Shown piece after piece: positions 12,143 through 16,829 of a stretch of 64,000 nt of DNA. The notes below the pieces were generated by a model that worked only from the letters and a program-made list of their open reading frames with translations, made no database searches and was not told the origin of the DNA. Source of the stretch: Asaia lannensis NBRC 102526 (GTDB lineage Bacteria > Pseudomonadota > Alphaproteobacteria > Acetobacterales > Acetobacteraceae); assembly GCF_024054035.1 (NCBI RefSeq), contig NZ_JAMXQU010000006.1:62001-126000 (forward strand). The letters run 5' to 3'. The first letter of the stretch is position 1. Each line of letters opens with the position of its first letter. Made by a program: the position numbers and the translations under genes.

Positions 12143-12345
12143 GGCGTGAACTCCTCAAGCGCCTCGATCATGGCGACCAGATGGCGACGCATGGCATCGG
12201 GCGCCACGCCCATGAGAAGGGCATCTTCGAAAGCATCCTGAAGCGACTGGCGCAGTTCGCTTTCGTTTTCGCGAAGGACCTTGAGTTTTTCGACGCAGGC
12301 GATGGGATCGCCATTGCGATCGGTCCAGAGCGTCGATCCGCTCAT
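12139..12345 (-). CDS. Small conserved protein in mlaD-DUF2155 operon
   Basis: Cytoplasmic-looking protein of 68 aa, rich in charged residues, with a predicted long helix (KLKVLRENESELRQSLQDAFEDALLMG). It has no signal peptide. Both ends overlap neighbours by the ATGA pattern (mlaD stop and DUF2155 start), which is good evidence that it is translated. I do not recognise a characterised family. Confidence 0.75.
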   Translation of the reverse strand: MSGSTLWTDRNGDPIACVEKLKVLRENESELRQSLQDAFEDALLMGVAPDAMRRHLVAMIEALEEFTP

Positions 12346-12842
12346 GGGTTGGCGGCCTTGCGGCTCTTGTCGAGCGAGTCCGTGACTGAGAAAATGAACT
12401 TGCTCAACAGCTGTTCGAGGCTGATCGCCCCCTGGGTCTGTGTCACCATGCCGCCCGGCTTCAGGTTCTTCTCGTCACCACCGGGCGAAAGCGCGATGTA
12501 CTTGCCGCCCAGAAGGCTGTCGGAGGTCACGATGGCCGCACTGTCTGTCGGCAGGTTGATGCCGTTACGTACCGTGAAGGAAACTTCTGCATGATAATTT
12601 GCGGGATCGACACGCTCGGATGTCACGTGTCCGACCGTGATACCGGCAAGGCGTACGTCCGAACCGACCGACAGACCGTCGATCTGGTCGAACACGGCGT
12701 TCAGTGTGTAGCCATCGGTACCGCCCTGATGGCGGCCGAGAACGGCAAGCGCCAGCAGGGCAGCCAGAACGACGAGGACCATGAACCCGGTGGTCAGTTC
12801 AAGAAGATCGCGACGGGGTCGCGCGCCAGACAGTGCACTCAT
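12342..12842 (-). CDS. mlaD: MlaD-type phospholipid transport substrate-binding protein
   Basis: MCE-domain protein of 166 aa anchored by one N-terminal span (LTTGFMVLVVLAALLALAVLG). The single MCE domain (YTLNAVFDQIDGLSVGSDVRLAGITVGHV ... LLGGKYIALSPGG) is typical of MlaD, which forms the periplasmic hexamer of the Mla retrograde phospholipid system. A C-terminal helix follows (QLLSKFIFSVTDSLDKSRK). The start at 12842 is chosen because residues encoded upstream come from a 15-bp tandem repeat. The mlaF and mlaE genes are not adjacent. Confidence 0.9.
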   Translation of the reverse strand: MSALSGARPRRDLLELTTGFMVLVVLAALLALAVLGRHQGGTDGYTLNAVFDQIDGLSVGSDVRLAGITVGHVTSERVDPANYHAEVSFTVRNGINLPTDSAAIVTSDSLLGGKYIALSPGGDEKNLKPGGMVTQTQGAISLEQLLSKFIFSVTDSLDKSRKAANP

Positions 12843-12853
12843 TAGGCTATGGC

Positions 12854-12894
12854 CCCGAAAAGGATGAACCCGAAAAGGATGAACCCGAAAAGAT
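12854..12894. repeat. 15-bp tandem repeat, about 2.7 copies
   Basis: The unit CCCGAAAAGGATGAA occurs at 12854-12868 and 12869-12883, followed by a partial copy. It lies in the leader of mlaD, only 12 bases before the start codon, so changes in copy number could alter the 5' UTR. Confidence 0.8.
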
Positions 12895-13057
12895 AACCGT
12901 CCCAGTCCTACAGGCTTCGCTTGCGAGCGTCCATGACCCTGCTGGAAACTGCTCACGTAATGTTATCCACCATATCCCCATTATGCGGACCATTATCCCC
13001 TGTCTGCAGGGCCGAAATACCCTTTTCCATCCACGAGTCGATGCCTAGATTCAGGGT

Positions 13058-14605
13058 ATGACAACGCTTCTCCAGTGGAACGGGGTGCGTATGCGTACTG
13101 CGCATGTCGCTGCCGATCCTGACGATCTTGCCCTGCGCGCCGTAACGCTTCCAGCCAGCTGGGACGACGAGGCGGCCATAGCGCTCCTGCAGCTTTCGGG
13201 ATCGACCGGCGCCCTGCGCCTGTCGACCGAGGCCGCGCGCTGGCTGGAGCGTTTCACGACGCTCCCCGCCCTGCCCGGTGAACCCGGCGCGAAGGCGCTC
13301 GGTCCGATGCTTGCTGCAGGACTGCTGGAGCGTCAGATCGCGCCCATGGCCTCGCTATGGCAGGGGCAGATCGACCGGCGTGCAGGCTTTGTCGTCAATC
13401 TCGGGGCGTTCGTTCAGGAGGGCGAGTTCAGGGGGGACAGTTTCGTTGCGACCCTGCGTCTTGCCTGTGCTGCGCTGCGTCGCCTGCATGCGGTCAACGG
13501 ACCCATGCTCAATGGCGAACTGCCTCTTTTCGATGGCCCTGTCACTGCACCGTCGGACGTGGACCAGCAGGGCGGTCCGGCCGGCACGCTGCTTCTGACC
13601 AATCTCGATTGCTGTCTGGCTCTGCTCGGCCTCGATTACGACAGTGAGACGGGGCGCGATGCGGCCTGTTATCTGAGCTGGCTTGCCACATCCCTGGCGC
13701 GTCAGGGTGCAGGCCCCGTGCCTCTGCCGCCCGTGTCCTGCCCGATCCCCGGGCTTGAGGTCACCGGCAGGCAGATCCGTGACGAAATGGAAGACAGTCT
13801 TCCGGATATTCCCGACAGGGCAGTGATCGAGACCGGTTTCTCTCTCCCTGGCCCGGTCGATGCACTTCTGGGTGTCGAATCCTGCGGTCTTGCGCCGATT
13901 TTCTCGCCCCTGCGGGATAATGGCCATCTTCGCGTCAGCGCCCTGTCACGTCTCGCCCATCGTGGGCTGAGCCTCGAAGCGGCGCTGGCATCATCGGTCA
14001 TGGGTGATAACCCGCTGCCACAGCCGGGGCCCGATGCGCATCTGCGCATGCACCGCGCCCTGACGGGTTTCGTCGATCGTATGCCTGCCCGCCCCGATCC
14101 GGCGGCACCCTTGTCGCTCAGGGCTCGTCTGGAACGTGGCGTGCGTCGGCCGTTGCCCGCCCGTCATGGTGGCTTTACGCAGCGCAGTGCGATCGGGGGG
14201 CATCGTCTTTATCTGCGTACGGGCGAATATGAGGACGGTTCGCTGGGCGAGGTTTCCCTGACCCCGGGGCGGGAGAGCGCCATGGTGCGCGGCCTGCTCG
14301 AAAGCGTCGGACAGGCGGTCACGATCGGTCTGCAATATGGCGCCCCGCTCGAAGCCTATGTCGAGCAGTTTGCCCATACACGCTTTGGGCCTGCAGGGAC
14401 GGTCGAGGGCGACCCTGTGGCCGCCTATGCCTCATCGCTGCTTGATTATGCCTTCCGGGCGTTGTCAGATAGCTATCTGGGCAAGCGCCTGCCCGATAGC
14501 GCGCCCGAAGATCCTCACGTCGTAGAGGAGGATCCGATGCTGCCGCTCGATATTCCGGGCGATCTTCCGCCGCGCGAACGTGGCAGGCTGCGTCTGGTCA
14601 GCTGA
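13058..14605 (+). CDS. TSCPD-type protein resembling a degenerate class II ribonucleotide reductase (NrdJ)
   Basis: Protein of 515 aa without a signal peptide. Residues about 369-475 closely track the C-terminal part of B12-dependent NrdJ: GGFTQRSAIGGHRLYLRTGEY, then SIGLQYG-like TIGLQYGAPLEAYVEQFAHTRFGPAG and ASSLLDYAFRALSDSYLG. Upstream, GVESCGLAPIFSPL recalls the barrel loop of reductases. The length is about half of NrdJ, and I see no NxCxE active-site motif or C-terminal CxxC pair, so it should not reduce ribonucleotides. Such TSCPD proteins recur in Acetobacteraceae with no known function. RidA follows after 33 bases. Confidence 0.75.
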   Translation: MTTLLQWNGVRMRTAHVAADPDDLALRAVTLPASWDDEAAIALLQLSGSTGALRLSTEAARWLERFTTLPALPGEPGAKALGPMLAAGLLERQIAPMASLWQGQIDRRAGFVVNLGAFVQEGEFRGDSFVATLRLACAALRRLHAVNGPMLNGELPLFDGPVTAPSDVDQQGGPAGTLLLTNLDCCLALLGLDYDSETGRDAACYLSWLATSLARQGAGPVPLPPVSCPIPGLEVTGRQIRDEMEDSLPDIPDRAVIETGFSLPGPVDALLGVESCGLAPIFSPLRDNGHLRVSALSRLAHRGLSLEAALASSVMGDNPLPQPGPDAHLRMHRALTGFVDRMPARPDPAAPLSLRARLERGVRRPLPARHGGFTQRSAIGGHRLYLRTGEYEDGSLGEVSLTPGRESAMVRGLLESVGQAVTIGLQYGAPLEAYVEQFAHTRFGPAGTVEGDPVAAYASSLLDYAFRALSDSYLGKRLPDSAPEDPHVVEEDPMLPLDIPGDLPPRERGRLRLVS

Positions 14606-14638
14606 GGGGAGATCGCCTCTCAGCAAGGAGACACGATC

Positions 14639-15115
14639 ATGTCCGATACTGCATCTGAAACACCTGCCTCGCGTCTGGCTGCCCTTGGTCTCACCCTTCC
14701 CAAGGCGGCTGCACCGGTTGCGACCTATGTGCCCGTAGCGCGTACGGGGTCGCTTCTGGTGGTGTCCGGCCAGCTGCCACTTGCCGGCGGTACGCTGAAG
14801 GCCACAGGCAAGCTGGGCGAGGATGTTGCGCCGGAGCTCGGTCGTGAATGCGCCGAGCTGTGCTTTCTCAATATCCTTGCGCAGGTCCAGGCCGAACTTG
14901 GCGACCTGTCCAGGGTCAAACGCATTGTGCGTCTGGGTGGCTTCATCGCCTGTACGCCCGATTTTACGCAGCATGCCACAGTCATGAATGGTGCGTCCGA
15001 CCTCGCCGTCGCGATCTTTGCCGAAGCAGGACGTCATGCACGTTCCACGATCGGCGTTCCTTCCTTGCCGCTGGATGCGCCGGTAGAGGTCGAGGCACTG
15101 ATCGAAATCGTCTGA
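14639..15115 (+). CDS. RidA / YjgF family enamine/imine deaminase-like protein
   Basis: RidA-fold protein of 158 aa, preceded by AAGGAG (14625-14630). Conserved features are LLVVSGQLPLAGG, the ECAELCFLNILAQVQAELGDLSRVKRIVRLGGFIAC core (split over this stretch) and ATVMNGASDLAVAIFAEAGRHARSTIGVPSLPLDAPVEVEALIEI. The Arg in HARSTIG matches the substrate carboxylate-binding Arg of active RidA proteins. This is the longer (about 150 aa) subgroup. Likely hydrolyses reactive enamines; the exact substrate is unknown. It lies between the NrdJ-like gene and the acyltransferase on the same strand. Confidence 0.9.
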   Translation: MSDTASETPASRLAALGLTLPKAAAPVATYVPVARTGSLLVVSGQLPLAGGTLKATGKLGEDVAPELGRECAELCFLNILAQVQAELGDLSRVKRIVRLGGFIACTPDFTQHATVMNGASDLAVAIFAEAGRHARSTIGVPSLPLDAPVEVEALIEIV

Positions 15116-15322
15116 TTTCCGGCTTCCCGTTGCGCTGCCTCCTGCGTGGCCGCCGGGGAAGATCCCGAACGGTCCAGGAGCGCAGCCGACAGGGTACATC
15201 CTGACCGACGCGCTATGAAAAGACCCGTGCCCGACGTCAGGGGGATCTGAAGCAGGAAAGGTTTTCCGGTCCTTCGGTCGGGGCAGGTTGTTTTGCCCCA
15301 TGTCGTAGACCACATCCTGCCC

Positions 15323-16477
15323 ATGACGGACTGGTCCCTGACGCTTCATGCGTCCATCTCGGAAATCGACGCCGCTCTTTGGGATCGCTGTGCTGGCGAT
15401 GACAATCCTTTTCTGTCGCACGGCTTCTTTCTGACCCTTGAAGAGAGCGGCTCTGTCGGGATGCGCACAGGCTGGCTGCCACGTTATGCTGCCCTGCGCG
15501 ACGGGAGTTCTCTCGTGGCTGTGGCGCCATTGTTCCTCAAGGGGCATTCCTATGGGGAATATGTGTTCGATCAGGCCTGGGCGCGCGCCTATGAACAGGC
15601 AGGGGGCCAGTATTATCCCAAGCTGCAGATTGCCGTGCCGTTCTCGCCCGTCAGCGGGCCGCGCCTGCTGGTCGATCCTGCCTGCATCGACTCCGATGCC
15701 GTCATGGGTGTTTTTGGCGATGCACTGCGTCAGGCCTGTCAGGAACTGGGGCTGTCCTCGATCCATATGACCTTCTGCACCGGTCACGAACAGGATGTGC
15801 TGACCCCCCATGGCTGGATGGCGCGCACAGGGCTGCAGTATCACTGGCACAATCGGGGTTATGAGAGTTTCGATCAGTTTCTCGACGCGCTGGCATCGCG
15901 CAAGCGCAAGGCCATCAAGCGTGAAAGGCGCGAGGCGCAAAGCTGCGGCCTGGCATTTCGTACGTTGCGCGGTGCCGATATCACAGAGCACGACTGGGAC
16001 CGTTTTTATGCGTTCTATCAGGCGACCATCGATCGCAAATGGGGGCAGGCCTATCTGACTCGCGATTTCTTTTCGGGTCTGTCTGCCCGTTTGGGTGAGA
16101 AGATCGTCCTGATGCAGGCCGTTCATGACGGTGTTCCGGTCGCCGCGGCGCTGAATCTGGTCGGGCGCGATACGCTCTATGGACGTAACTGGGGCTGCGA
16201 GGGTGACTGGCCCTTTCTGCATTTCGAGCTGTGCTATTATCGTGCCATCGATTTTGCCATTGCCGAAGGGCTTGCCTGTGTCGAAGCGGGAGCGCAGGGC
16301 GAACACAAGATCCAGCGCGGCTATCTGCCGAGTCTGACCCATTCGGCGCATTTCATTCGCGATCCGGCGCTTGCCCGCGCCGTTGGGCCGTATCTGGCCG
16401 AGGAACGCAAAGCCATTCTTGAAGAGAAAGAGGCGCTTGAGACCCTCTCGCCCTATCGTCATGAAAATAGTTGTTGA
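15323..16477 (+). CDS. FemAB/DUF482-type GNAT-like acyltransferase
   Basis: Protein of 384 aa matching the COG3146 / DUF482 peptidogalycan-type family. Recognisable blocks are SEIDAALWDRCAGDDNPFLSHGFF, EYVFDQAWARAYEQAGGQYYPKLQIAVPFSPVSGPRLL, FDQFLDALASRKRKAIKRERREAQ and VEAGAQGEHKIQRGYLP. These describe two tandem GNAT-like folds as in Fem transferases. The reaction is not established. The start is the ATG at 15323; a TTG at 15293 is in frame but lacks support. Its stop codon overlaps a Fur-like palindrome. Confidence 0.8.
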   Translation: MTDWSLTLHASISEIDAALWDRCAGDDNPFLSHGFFLTLEESGSVGMRTGWLPRYAALRDGSSLVAVAPLFLKGHSYGEYVFDQAWARAYEQAGGQYYPKLQIAVPFSPVSGPRLLVDPACIDSDAVMGVFGDALRQACQELGLSSIHMTFCTGHEQDVLTPHGWMARTGLQYHWHNRGYESFDQFLDALASRKRKAIKRERREAQSCGLAFRTLRGADITEHDWDRFYAFYQATIDRKWGQAYLTRDFFSGLSARLGEKIVLMQAVHDGVPVAAALNLVGRDTLYGRNWGCEGDWPFLHFELCYYRAIDFAIAEGLACVEAGAQGEHKIQRGYLPSLTHSAHFIRDPALARAVGPYLAEERKAILEEKEALETLSPYRHENSC

Positions 16478-16489
16478 GAACGACTCTCA
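16475..16489. promoter_or_regulatory. Fur-box-like palindrome
   Basis: TGAGA-ACGAC-TCTCA is a perfect 5-bp inverted repeat with a 5-base centre, followed by CTATCATATAG. Taken together, GAGAACGACTCTCACTATC differs from a GAGAATGATTCTCATTATC-type Fur operator by three C-for-T changes. It overlaps the acyltransferase stop and precedes the small ORF at 16638. Inference from pattern only. Confidence 0.4.
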
Positions 16490-16637
16490 CTATCATATAG
16501 GCTGACCGCAGTCGGGGTGCAGGGATAGGCCCGGTACCTCCCTGAAAGAGGATCGTCTTTCAGGTCATTGTTTTCATGCCCTGTCTCGGTCGCGCATATT
16601 GCCCGACCCGGGAAAGGGTCGCGAGGGTCAGACTGAA

Positions 16638-16829
16638 ATGATCAGATATCTTTCGACCGGCGCTGCCGATCTTGCCCGCCTGCTTGCCCAGAGCCACAAG
16701 ACGCAGCCCTCGCCTGTCTGGGCCGAAGCGCAGATGTTCTTTGGCTTCGATGGCGCCGAGCGCAATGAGACACCCAGCCTGAACGCGTCTACGCTCTGGA
16801 ACGAACACAGCGAAGCCATTGCCCGCTGA
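16638..16829 (+). CDS. Small hypothetical protein
   Basis: Possible 63-aa protein beginning MIRYLSTGAADLARLLAQS, with an amphipathic N-terminal helix and no signal peptide. The ATG at 16638 is weakly placed (GCGAGGG lies about 10 bases upstream). No family is recognised. Support is limited to codon pattern and its position 150 bases behind a Fur-like palindrome; the opposite strand holds a less convincing ORF. Confidence 0.4.
   Translation: MIRYLSTGAADLARLLAQSHKTQPSPVWAEAQMFFGFDGAERNETPSLNASTLWNEHSEAIAR

Follow-up and report, generated by a model that had tools for sequence, protein, structure and literature searches.

Layout of the locus

The window, by which we mean the whole 64,000-nucleotide stretch of DNA analysed, carries on its forward strand a gene for a 515-residue protein derived from NrdJ, the B12-dependent class II ribonucleotide reductase (RNR). 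The gene and its neighbours comprise the following features (window coordinates).

12345..12956, - strand: mlaD, the divergent neighbour (Pfam MlaD, E 1.3e-20), taken as a marker of the ancestral nrdJ slot, with no functional partnership claimed
13058..14605, + strand: short NrdJ-derived protein of 515 residues without the reductase catalytic residues (open reading frame, NF005736 match, profile match, structure model)
13073..13366, + strand: putative N-terminal domain, residues 6-103, corresponding to NrdJ ~104-250 (weak profile matches, and a structure alignment from residue 7)
13367..13393, + strand: putative deletion junction, residues ~104-112, where NrdJ ~250-582 is absent (exact joint inferred from the mapping)
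13394..13909, + strand: second half of the RNR barrel as assigned by profile matches, residues 113-284, corresponding to NrdJ 583-786, with PTGTIG replaced
13910..14128, + strand: shortened linker, residues 285-357, of which 324-341 resemble NrdJ 951-968
14129..14488, + strand: TSCPD domain, residues 358-477, Cys-free, the slowest-evolving domain within the genus (NF005736 and Pfam matches)
14489..14602, + strand: C-terminal tail, residues 478-515, without the NrdJ zinc-finger/CxxC tail (open reading frame, motif count)
14639..15115, + strand: RidA-family protein, 33 bp downstream of the short gene, with an AAGGAG-type ribosome-binding site (Pfam, sequence)
15293..16477, + strand: FemAB-like/GNAT acyltransferase (Pfam FemAB_like, E 1.5e-154)

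NrdJ ancestry is evident at the C-terminus, where the NCBIfam model for B12-dependent RNR, NF005736, matches residues 362-477 at E 1.5e-37 through its positions 968-1083 of 1222; the whole-protein score for this model is 128.8 bits, under its curated cut-off of 1737. The Pfam TSCPD model (PF12637) matches residues 380-471 with 39.7 bits, exceeding the cut-off of 22.8, and is the sole Pfam match obtained with the single-sequence query, which returned no output domain such as a DNA-binding one. An original prediction made from the DNA letters had assigned the last 110 residues to the C-terminal block of NrdJ; the block is present with slightly different bounds, as a TSCPD domain of ~120 residues followed by a 38-residue tail. 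Two things go beyond that prediction: NrdJ ancestry extends to the N-terminal 350 residues, and the gene stands in the old nrdJ slot beside mlaD. A search for sigma-70-like promoters across window positions 12700-16700 found none.

NrdJ homology outside the TSCPD domain

Profiles of 41 members of the short family were compared with 58 NrdJ sequences of >1100 residues, and a wider set of 59 short-family members was used later; NrdJ numbering throughout is that of the sequence L111. Residues 1-355, compared without the TSCPD domain, reach E 6.2e-10 against NrdJ in the 41-sequence comparison, over residues 113-284 and NrdJ 583-786, against E 0.1-0.54 for one reversed and three column-shuffled templates. 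The 59-sequence profile, run without a separate control, returned E 6.6e-14. These data identify residues 113-284, by sequence, as the second half of the NrdJ barrel, independently of the TSCPD domain. The Pfam RNR barrel model matches some short proteins weakly, at or just under its cut-off.

The signal at the N-terminus is fainter. Residues 6-46 match NrdJ 104-148 at E 0.0016 (0.008 against whole NrdJ), compared with 0.27-0.78 for six column shuffles; residues 84-103 give a non-significant E 0.46 against NrdJ 229-248, and residues 1-100 alone gave no significant match to NrdJ with the 41-sequence profile. Within the linker, residues 324-341 weakly match NrdJ 951-968 (E 0.0076, or 0.038 against whole NrdJ). 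A first profile alignment (E 5.3e-73), which placed residues 1-112 on NrdJ ~483-582, was discarded, as the wider profile did not reproduce that stretch.

Database searches point the same way. The 1-355 profile matched 239 of 385 alphaproteobacterial genomes, with full-length NrdJ frames reaching down to E 7e-15. Outside the gene's own family, the matches listed fall within residues 106-309, mostly 110-286, in frames of 793-1364 residues; these frames are NrdJ, a few of them probably cut by contig ends. Matches of the short type, extending over a long range of the profile, occurred in this search in the own family only, in 4/5 of its genomes there. Among 177,635 PDB sequences, a 12-sequence family profile found only the B12-dependent RNR of R. 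sphaeroides (7b9q/7b9p; E ~8e-7, residues 178-287), and the short protein as a single-sequence query found no PDB match.

The fold was modelled with AlphaFold from the 12-sequence alignment (mean pLDDT 74.1, pTM 0.63; the other four models scored 55-67). In the model, residues 7-355 superpose on Rhodobacter sphaeroides NrdJ (7b9q) with Z 25.4 and an rmsd of 3.2 over 331 residues at 18 percent identity, and all 45 Foldseek matches at E <= 0.001 are RNRs. The short protein is thus predicted to have an RNR-like fold in which the N-domain and second half-barrel persist, in keeping with the RNR derivation first proposed, for which superposition on a class II RNR had been suggested. Together with the weak sequence scores, the model suggests that residues 1-112 are the NrdJ N-domain.

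A separate model of the TSCPD part (mean pLDDT 82.4) ranks IscU, SufU and SufE-like chains first with weak scores (Z <= 5.2), lipoate ligase (4.7) and PURA (4.5) domains scoring almost as high, and Foldseek returned nothing significant for it (best E 0.4). On this model an IscU-like fold is possible.

Loss of the catalytic elements

In L111 the NrdJ landmarks are the first redox Cys at 289, the specificity loops at ~318-370, the Cys of NPCSE at 567, a further Cys at 578 and the CxxC pair at ~1270-1290; we take Cys289, Cys567 in NPCSE (the thiyl-radical Cys) and Cys578 to be the catalytic residues. The segment absent from the short protein, NrdJ ~250-582 (~330 residues), spans the first half-barrel, the specificity loops, Cys289, the finger loop with NPCSE, and Cys578. 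That the protein lacks both the NxCxE and CxxC motifs had been noticed beforehand, and the motif counts bear this out: NxCxE occurs in 0/59 members of the short family, the window protein included, against N[PA]CxE in 58/58 NrdJ controls, and CxxC in 5/59, at scattered positions and not in the window protein, against 57/58. The window protein has no Cys downstream of residue 276, and hence none in the TSCPD domain at 358-477. An Fe-S scaffold of the IscU type, considered as a candidate function, was rejected on the same grounds, there being no Cys ligands in those residues.

The substrate phosphate motif PTGTIG is replaced as well. In the columns where NrdJ is >= 95 percent invariant, the short family has the same commonest residue at 21/66 in the half-barrel, 7/15 in the linker and 43/60 in the TSCPD domain. 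With just 21/66 near-invariant barrel columns kept, the protein may have lost the ligand sites of the enzyme it came from. Judged by its sequence, it would have no reductase activity and would no longer make deoxyribonucleotides.

The gene occupies an old nrdJ slot

Thirty short-gene loci had flanks for comparison. A divergent mlaD lies upstream in 30/30 (29 within 1.5 kb, one at 4.7 kb), ridA downstream on the same strand in 25/30, and a FemAB-like acyltransferase gene nearby in 22/30, 21 of these downstream on the same strand. Among 73 full-length NrdJ loci, many with short flanks, mlaD was present in 21, ridA in 15 and femAB in 10, and five loci (L055, L056, L061, L064, L077) combine mlaD, nrdJ, ridA and femAB. 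In 20 further genomes from across the class, inspected ~6 kb each side of nrdJ (L191-L210) and hand-picked among the matches listed to spread by score and contig size, and so a non-random sample, a divergent mlaD lies upstream in 14/20, at 0.5-3.4 kb; ridA is downstream in 2 of the 20 and femAB in 1.

The short gene therefore adjoins the same divergent mlaD as full-length nrdJ does in 14/20 alphaproteobacteria, which indicates that nrdJ eroded in place and that mlaD and nrdJ have long been paired in the class. Being scarcer beside nrdJ, ridA and femAB appear to be a more local addition, in some lineages predating the decay. The travelling of the gene with RidA and an acyltransferase, remarked on from the window alone, is thus real as an association, but it predates the decay and is shared with some full-length nrdJ. 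Since both genes already stood beside full-length nrdJ in some relatives, they are weak functional evidence, and the neighbourhood was set aside as a guide to function. More generally, arguments from gene neighbours such as these can be inherited from an ancestor gene.

A tree of the TSCPD domain agrees with this history. One branch with support 100/100 separates 35 short proteins from 54 NrdJ in a tree built from few columns, with several long branches and poor resolution among the basal rows of the short clade. Acidisoma-type NrdJ (L111, L118) groups among alphaproteobacterial NrdJ, apart from the short proteins. The tree used 89/123 rows after thinning at 93 percent identity; it left out the short copies L027, L124, L126, L135, L128 and L137, together with duplicates, near-copies or a fragment (L001, L004-L008, L045, L121-L123).

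Distribution and co-occurring reductases

The host genome (3.22 Mb, 99.96 percent complete) has one copy of the short protein; no other TSCPD match and no full-length NrdJ were found in it. The one RNR large chain found there is a class I NrdA, which scores 1032 bits (cut-off 620); a class I small subunit is matched ~1 kb from it, and both lie on another contig than the short gene. The closest named record listed is from Asaia sp. W19, at 86 percent identity, in a set from which the records nearest the host genome may be absent.

Recurrence of such proteins in acetic acid bacteria had been anticipated, and it extends more widely in the family: 269/299 family genomes, some of only 1.7-2.0 Mb, have a match to the short protein at E <= 0.001, though some of the matches counted may be full NrdJ or other TSCPD proteins. 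Among the matches listed, many frames are of ~500-600 residues and are matched over most of their length. The NrdJ cut-off is passed by only 5/299, all of the Acidisoma-type genus g54 (G053, G130, G179, G217, G249). All five also carry a frame of 512-676 residues that matches TSCPD, confirmed as the short type over its length in G053 and G217, and none has a match to a class I small subunit, as opposed to its presence in 109/120 family genomes. Acidisoma-type genomes (L111, L114-L118) have likely swapped back from class I to class II RNR. Their full-length NrdJ lies outside the mlaD slot; where both genes are on one contig, as in four genomes, ~26-460 kb separate it from the short gene.

Some family members also have a short class II RNR of the NrdJ_Z type (~760 residues) with a TSCPD of its own (L213, L214; G076, G062). 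In G076 no class I small subunit was found, and the NrdJ_Z type enzyme and the short protein are both present. The short protein therefore coexists with any working RNR type: class I, long class II encoded elsewhere, or short class II.

In two genera (g46, g97; L177-L181, L188-L190) the slot holds a relative that the single-sequence search had missed. This second form lacks the TSCPD domain. Its frame measures 478-549 residues in G045, G125, G176, G154 and G197 and is cut by a contig end in G097; a divergent mlaD adjoins it in all six genomes, none of which has a TSCPD match elsewhere. A profile of the five proteins matches two stretches of NrdJ, 507-968 (E 1.1e-21) and 199-248 (E 0.009), and the form keeps more of the NrdJ middle, including a GHGTL-AP motif, than the short form does. 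Two of three TSCPD-less relatives tested pass the Pfam RNR barrel cut-off, and the third reaches 22.8 of 23.9 bits. By sequence, the N-domain and second half-barrel are the part common to both forms. As the TSCPD domain has been lost in two genera whose copies otherwise stay in the slot, it is not indispensable everywhere, which speaks against a function confined to it.

Losses also occur. In G062, G137, G185 and G066 (genera g63, g67; L184-L187) neither form was found within ~6 kb beside mlaD or by whole-genome profile search, and ridA and femAB were not found near mlaD in these four genomes either. The whole-genome profile search gave no match in G191 and G223. Interrupted or split copies were seen in G259 (C18:24808-26356), G126 (C1:19818-20960) and G136 (C1), which could be assembly errors or local losses.

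The short protein is under strong purifying selection. In comparisons with six relatives from the genus or close to it (L005-L009 of the own genus and Asaia L034), dN/dS is 0.07-0.11 overall, 0.011-0.045 in the TSCPD domain and 0.13-0.19 in the N-domain; these ratios are approximate, as dS is often close to 1 and sometimes higher. Three more distant relatives, completing the nine computed, give 0.166-0.172 over the protein.

A probable non-catalytic remnant of NrdJ, and rival readings

By sequence, the short protein is an nrdJ orthologue that keeps the N-domain, the second half-barrel and, in most lineages, the TSCPD domain. We put at roughly 80% the probability that it is this orthologue in its ancestral slot, the catalytic half lost and the rest kept for a non-catalytic role; that the gene is an eroded, non-catalytic and functional nrdJ, whatever its precise history, we regard as very probable. 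A single deletion would have removed the first half-barrel before the family diversified. Because the remnant is kept under strong selection despite the lost catalytic half, it probably has some other job, conceivably a non-catalytic one that NrdJ already had.

The likeliest function, proposed tentatively, is a specific protein scaffold: a folded mini-NrdJ would bind other proteins, with the TSCPD surface as its main constrained face where that domain is present. This suggestion draws on the lost chemistry, the strong constraint on a Cys-free domain and published remarks on the IscU-like domain discussed below. A more far-reaching idea, possible and rather speculative, is that alphaproteobacterial NrdJ has a second, reduction-independent job in its N-domain, second half-barrel and IscU-like TSCPD. 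As the family moved to class I RNR, only the catalytic half would have been deleted and the job kept as a family-wide, perhaps near-essential non-enzyme, one that full-length NrdJ would still perform elsewhere.

The origin of the protein as an RNR alpha chain, and the chance that its kept parts could pack against RNR chains, invite the reading of it as a dedicated regulator or subunit of a working RNR (a pseudo-subunit, assembly factor or inhibitor). We consider this unlikely. The protein stands beside class I RNR without NrdJ in the host genome, where the class I genes are on another contig, beside full-length NrdJ without a class I small subunit found in 5/5 g54 genomes, and beside short class II RNR without one in G076; it also lacks the Cys tail that NrdJb uses. 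The g54 genomes in particular, with the short protein and no class I small-subunit match, disfavour a dedicated partner or accessory of class I RNR.

Less likely again is a nucleotide or cobalamin sensor, in which the half-barrel would bind the old ligand and signal its level. The predicted persistence of the second half-barrel and N-domain, and the clustering of highly conserved residues in motifs such as GLDYDSE-GR and GVE-CGLAP-FS, would suit such a sensor, but the specificity loops sit in the deleted part, PTGTIG and two-thirds of the near-invariant barrel columns are not retained, and Pfam finds no domain through which a signal could be passed on. New catalytic activity, through Cys186, Cys204, Cys276 or other invariant residues, seems improbable: of 41 aligned rows, 95, 90 and 98 percent respectively have these three Cys, but the catalytic Cys of NrdJ was in the deleted segment, to which none of them belongs, Cys276 drops to 75 percent among the 59 members, and the TSCPD-less copies, aligned by eye, have Ala at the Cys186 position.

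Two readings have very little left to them. Fusion of an unrelated N-terminal protein to a TSCPD captured from an nrdJ, as the single query's lack of a PDB match and of a Pfam match outside TSCPD might imply, is rejected by the TSCPD-free profile match of residues 113-284 and by gene order. A drifting pseudogene on its way out would fit the interrupted or split copies and the slot losses in two genera, but dN/dS of 0.07-0.11 speaks against a dying gene, as do the matches in 269/299 family genomes, those of 1.7-2.0 Mb among them.

Comparison with known reductase chains

The long alphaproteobacterial NrdJ (NF005736, 7b9q) shares with the short protein the N-domain, the second half-barrel, the TSCPD domain and the place beside a divergent mlaD. 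The short protein differs in being less than half as long, without the first half-barrel, NxCxE, the redox Cys, the specificity loops and the CxxC tail. Its TSCPD domain is above the Pfam cut-off for PF12637, yet Cys-free and outside an active RNR.

Few enzyme families are as conserved as RNR, and the literature searched contains no report from a cellular organism of its catalytic half being lost in place with the remainder kept family-wide. Betaherpesviruses reportedly reuse RNR large-subunit homologues without reductase activity, M45 and UL45, which act on host signalling. The likeness goes no further than analogy: in each case an RNR chain that no longer acts as a reductase would serve a different purpose, but M45 and UL45 belong to viruses, whereas here a class II gene of a bacterial cell was shortened where it stood.

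NrdJb of Pseudomonas aeruginosa, from a split class II RNR, likewise exists as a chain by itself and bears the IscU-like domain (TSCPD region) of NrdJ. It has retained the zinc-finger Cys tail and acts together with NrdJa; the short protein has no Cys tail and still has its half-barrel attached, and no NrdJa partner was found in the host genome, where the only RNR large chain found is of class I. NrdJb is described as the separate chain of the split enzyme that carries dithiol exchange (PMC4520616). Without a Cys tail, the short protein cannot perform exchange in the manner of NrdJb. An IscU-like domain has been described in the C-termini of long class II RNRs (PMC9669993), and we equate it, by position, with TSCPD. 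The same paper raises oligomerisation as something this domain might serve and states that no role has been reported for it (PMC9669993). Here the TSCPD/IscU-like domain is kept apart from catalysis, so that its role is open to a deletion test while class I RNR sustains DNA synthesis.

The expectation that the protein is functionally undescribed agrees with a search of the open-licence literature on TSCPD, RNR pseudoenzymes and nrdJ/RNR in acetic acid bacteria, conducted mostly by title, in which no paper on it appeared. A minor feature of the window is a 665-residue open frame on the reverse strand (14465-16462), which overlaps the last part of the short gene as well as ridA and the acyltransferase gene and is probably a by-product of codon composition.
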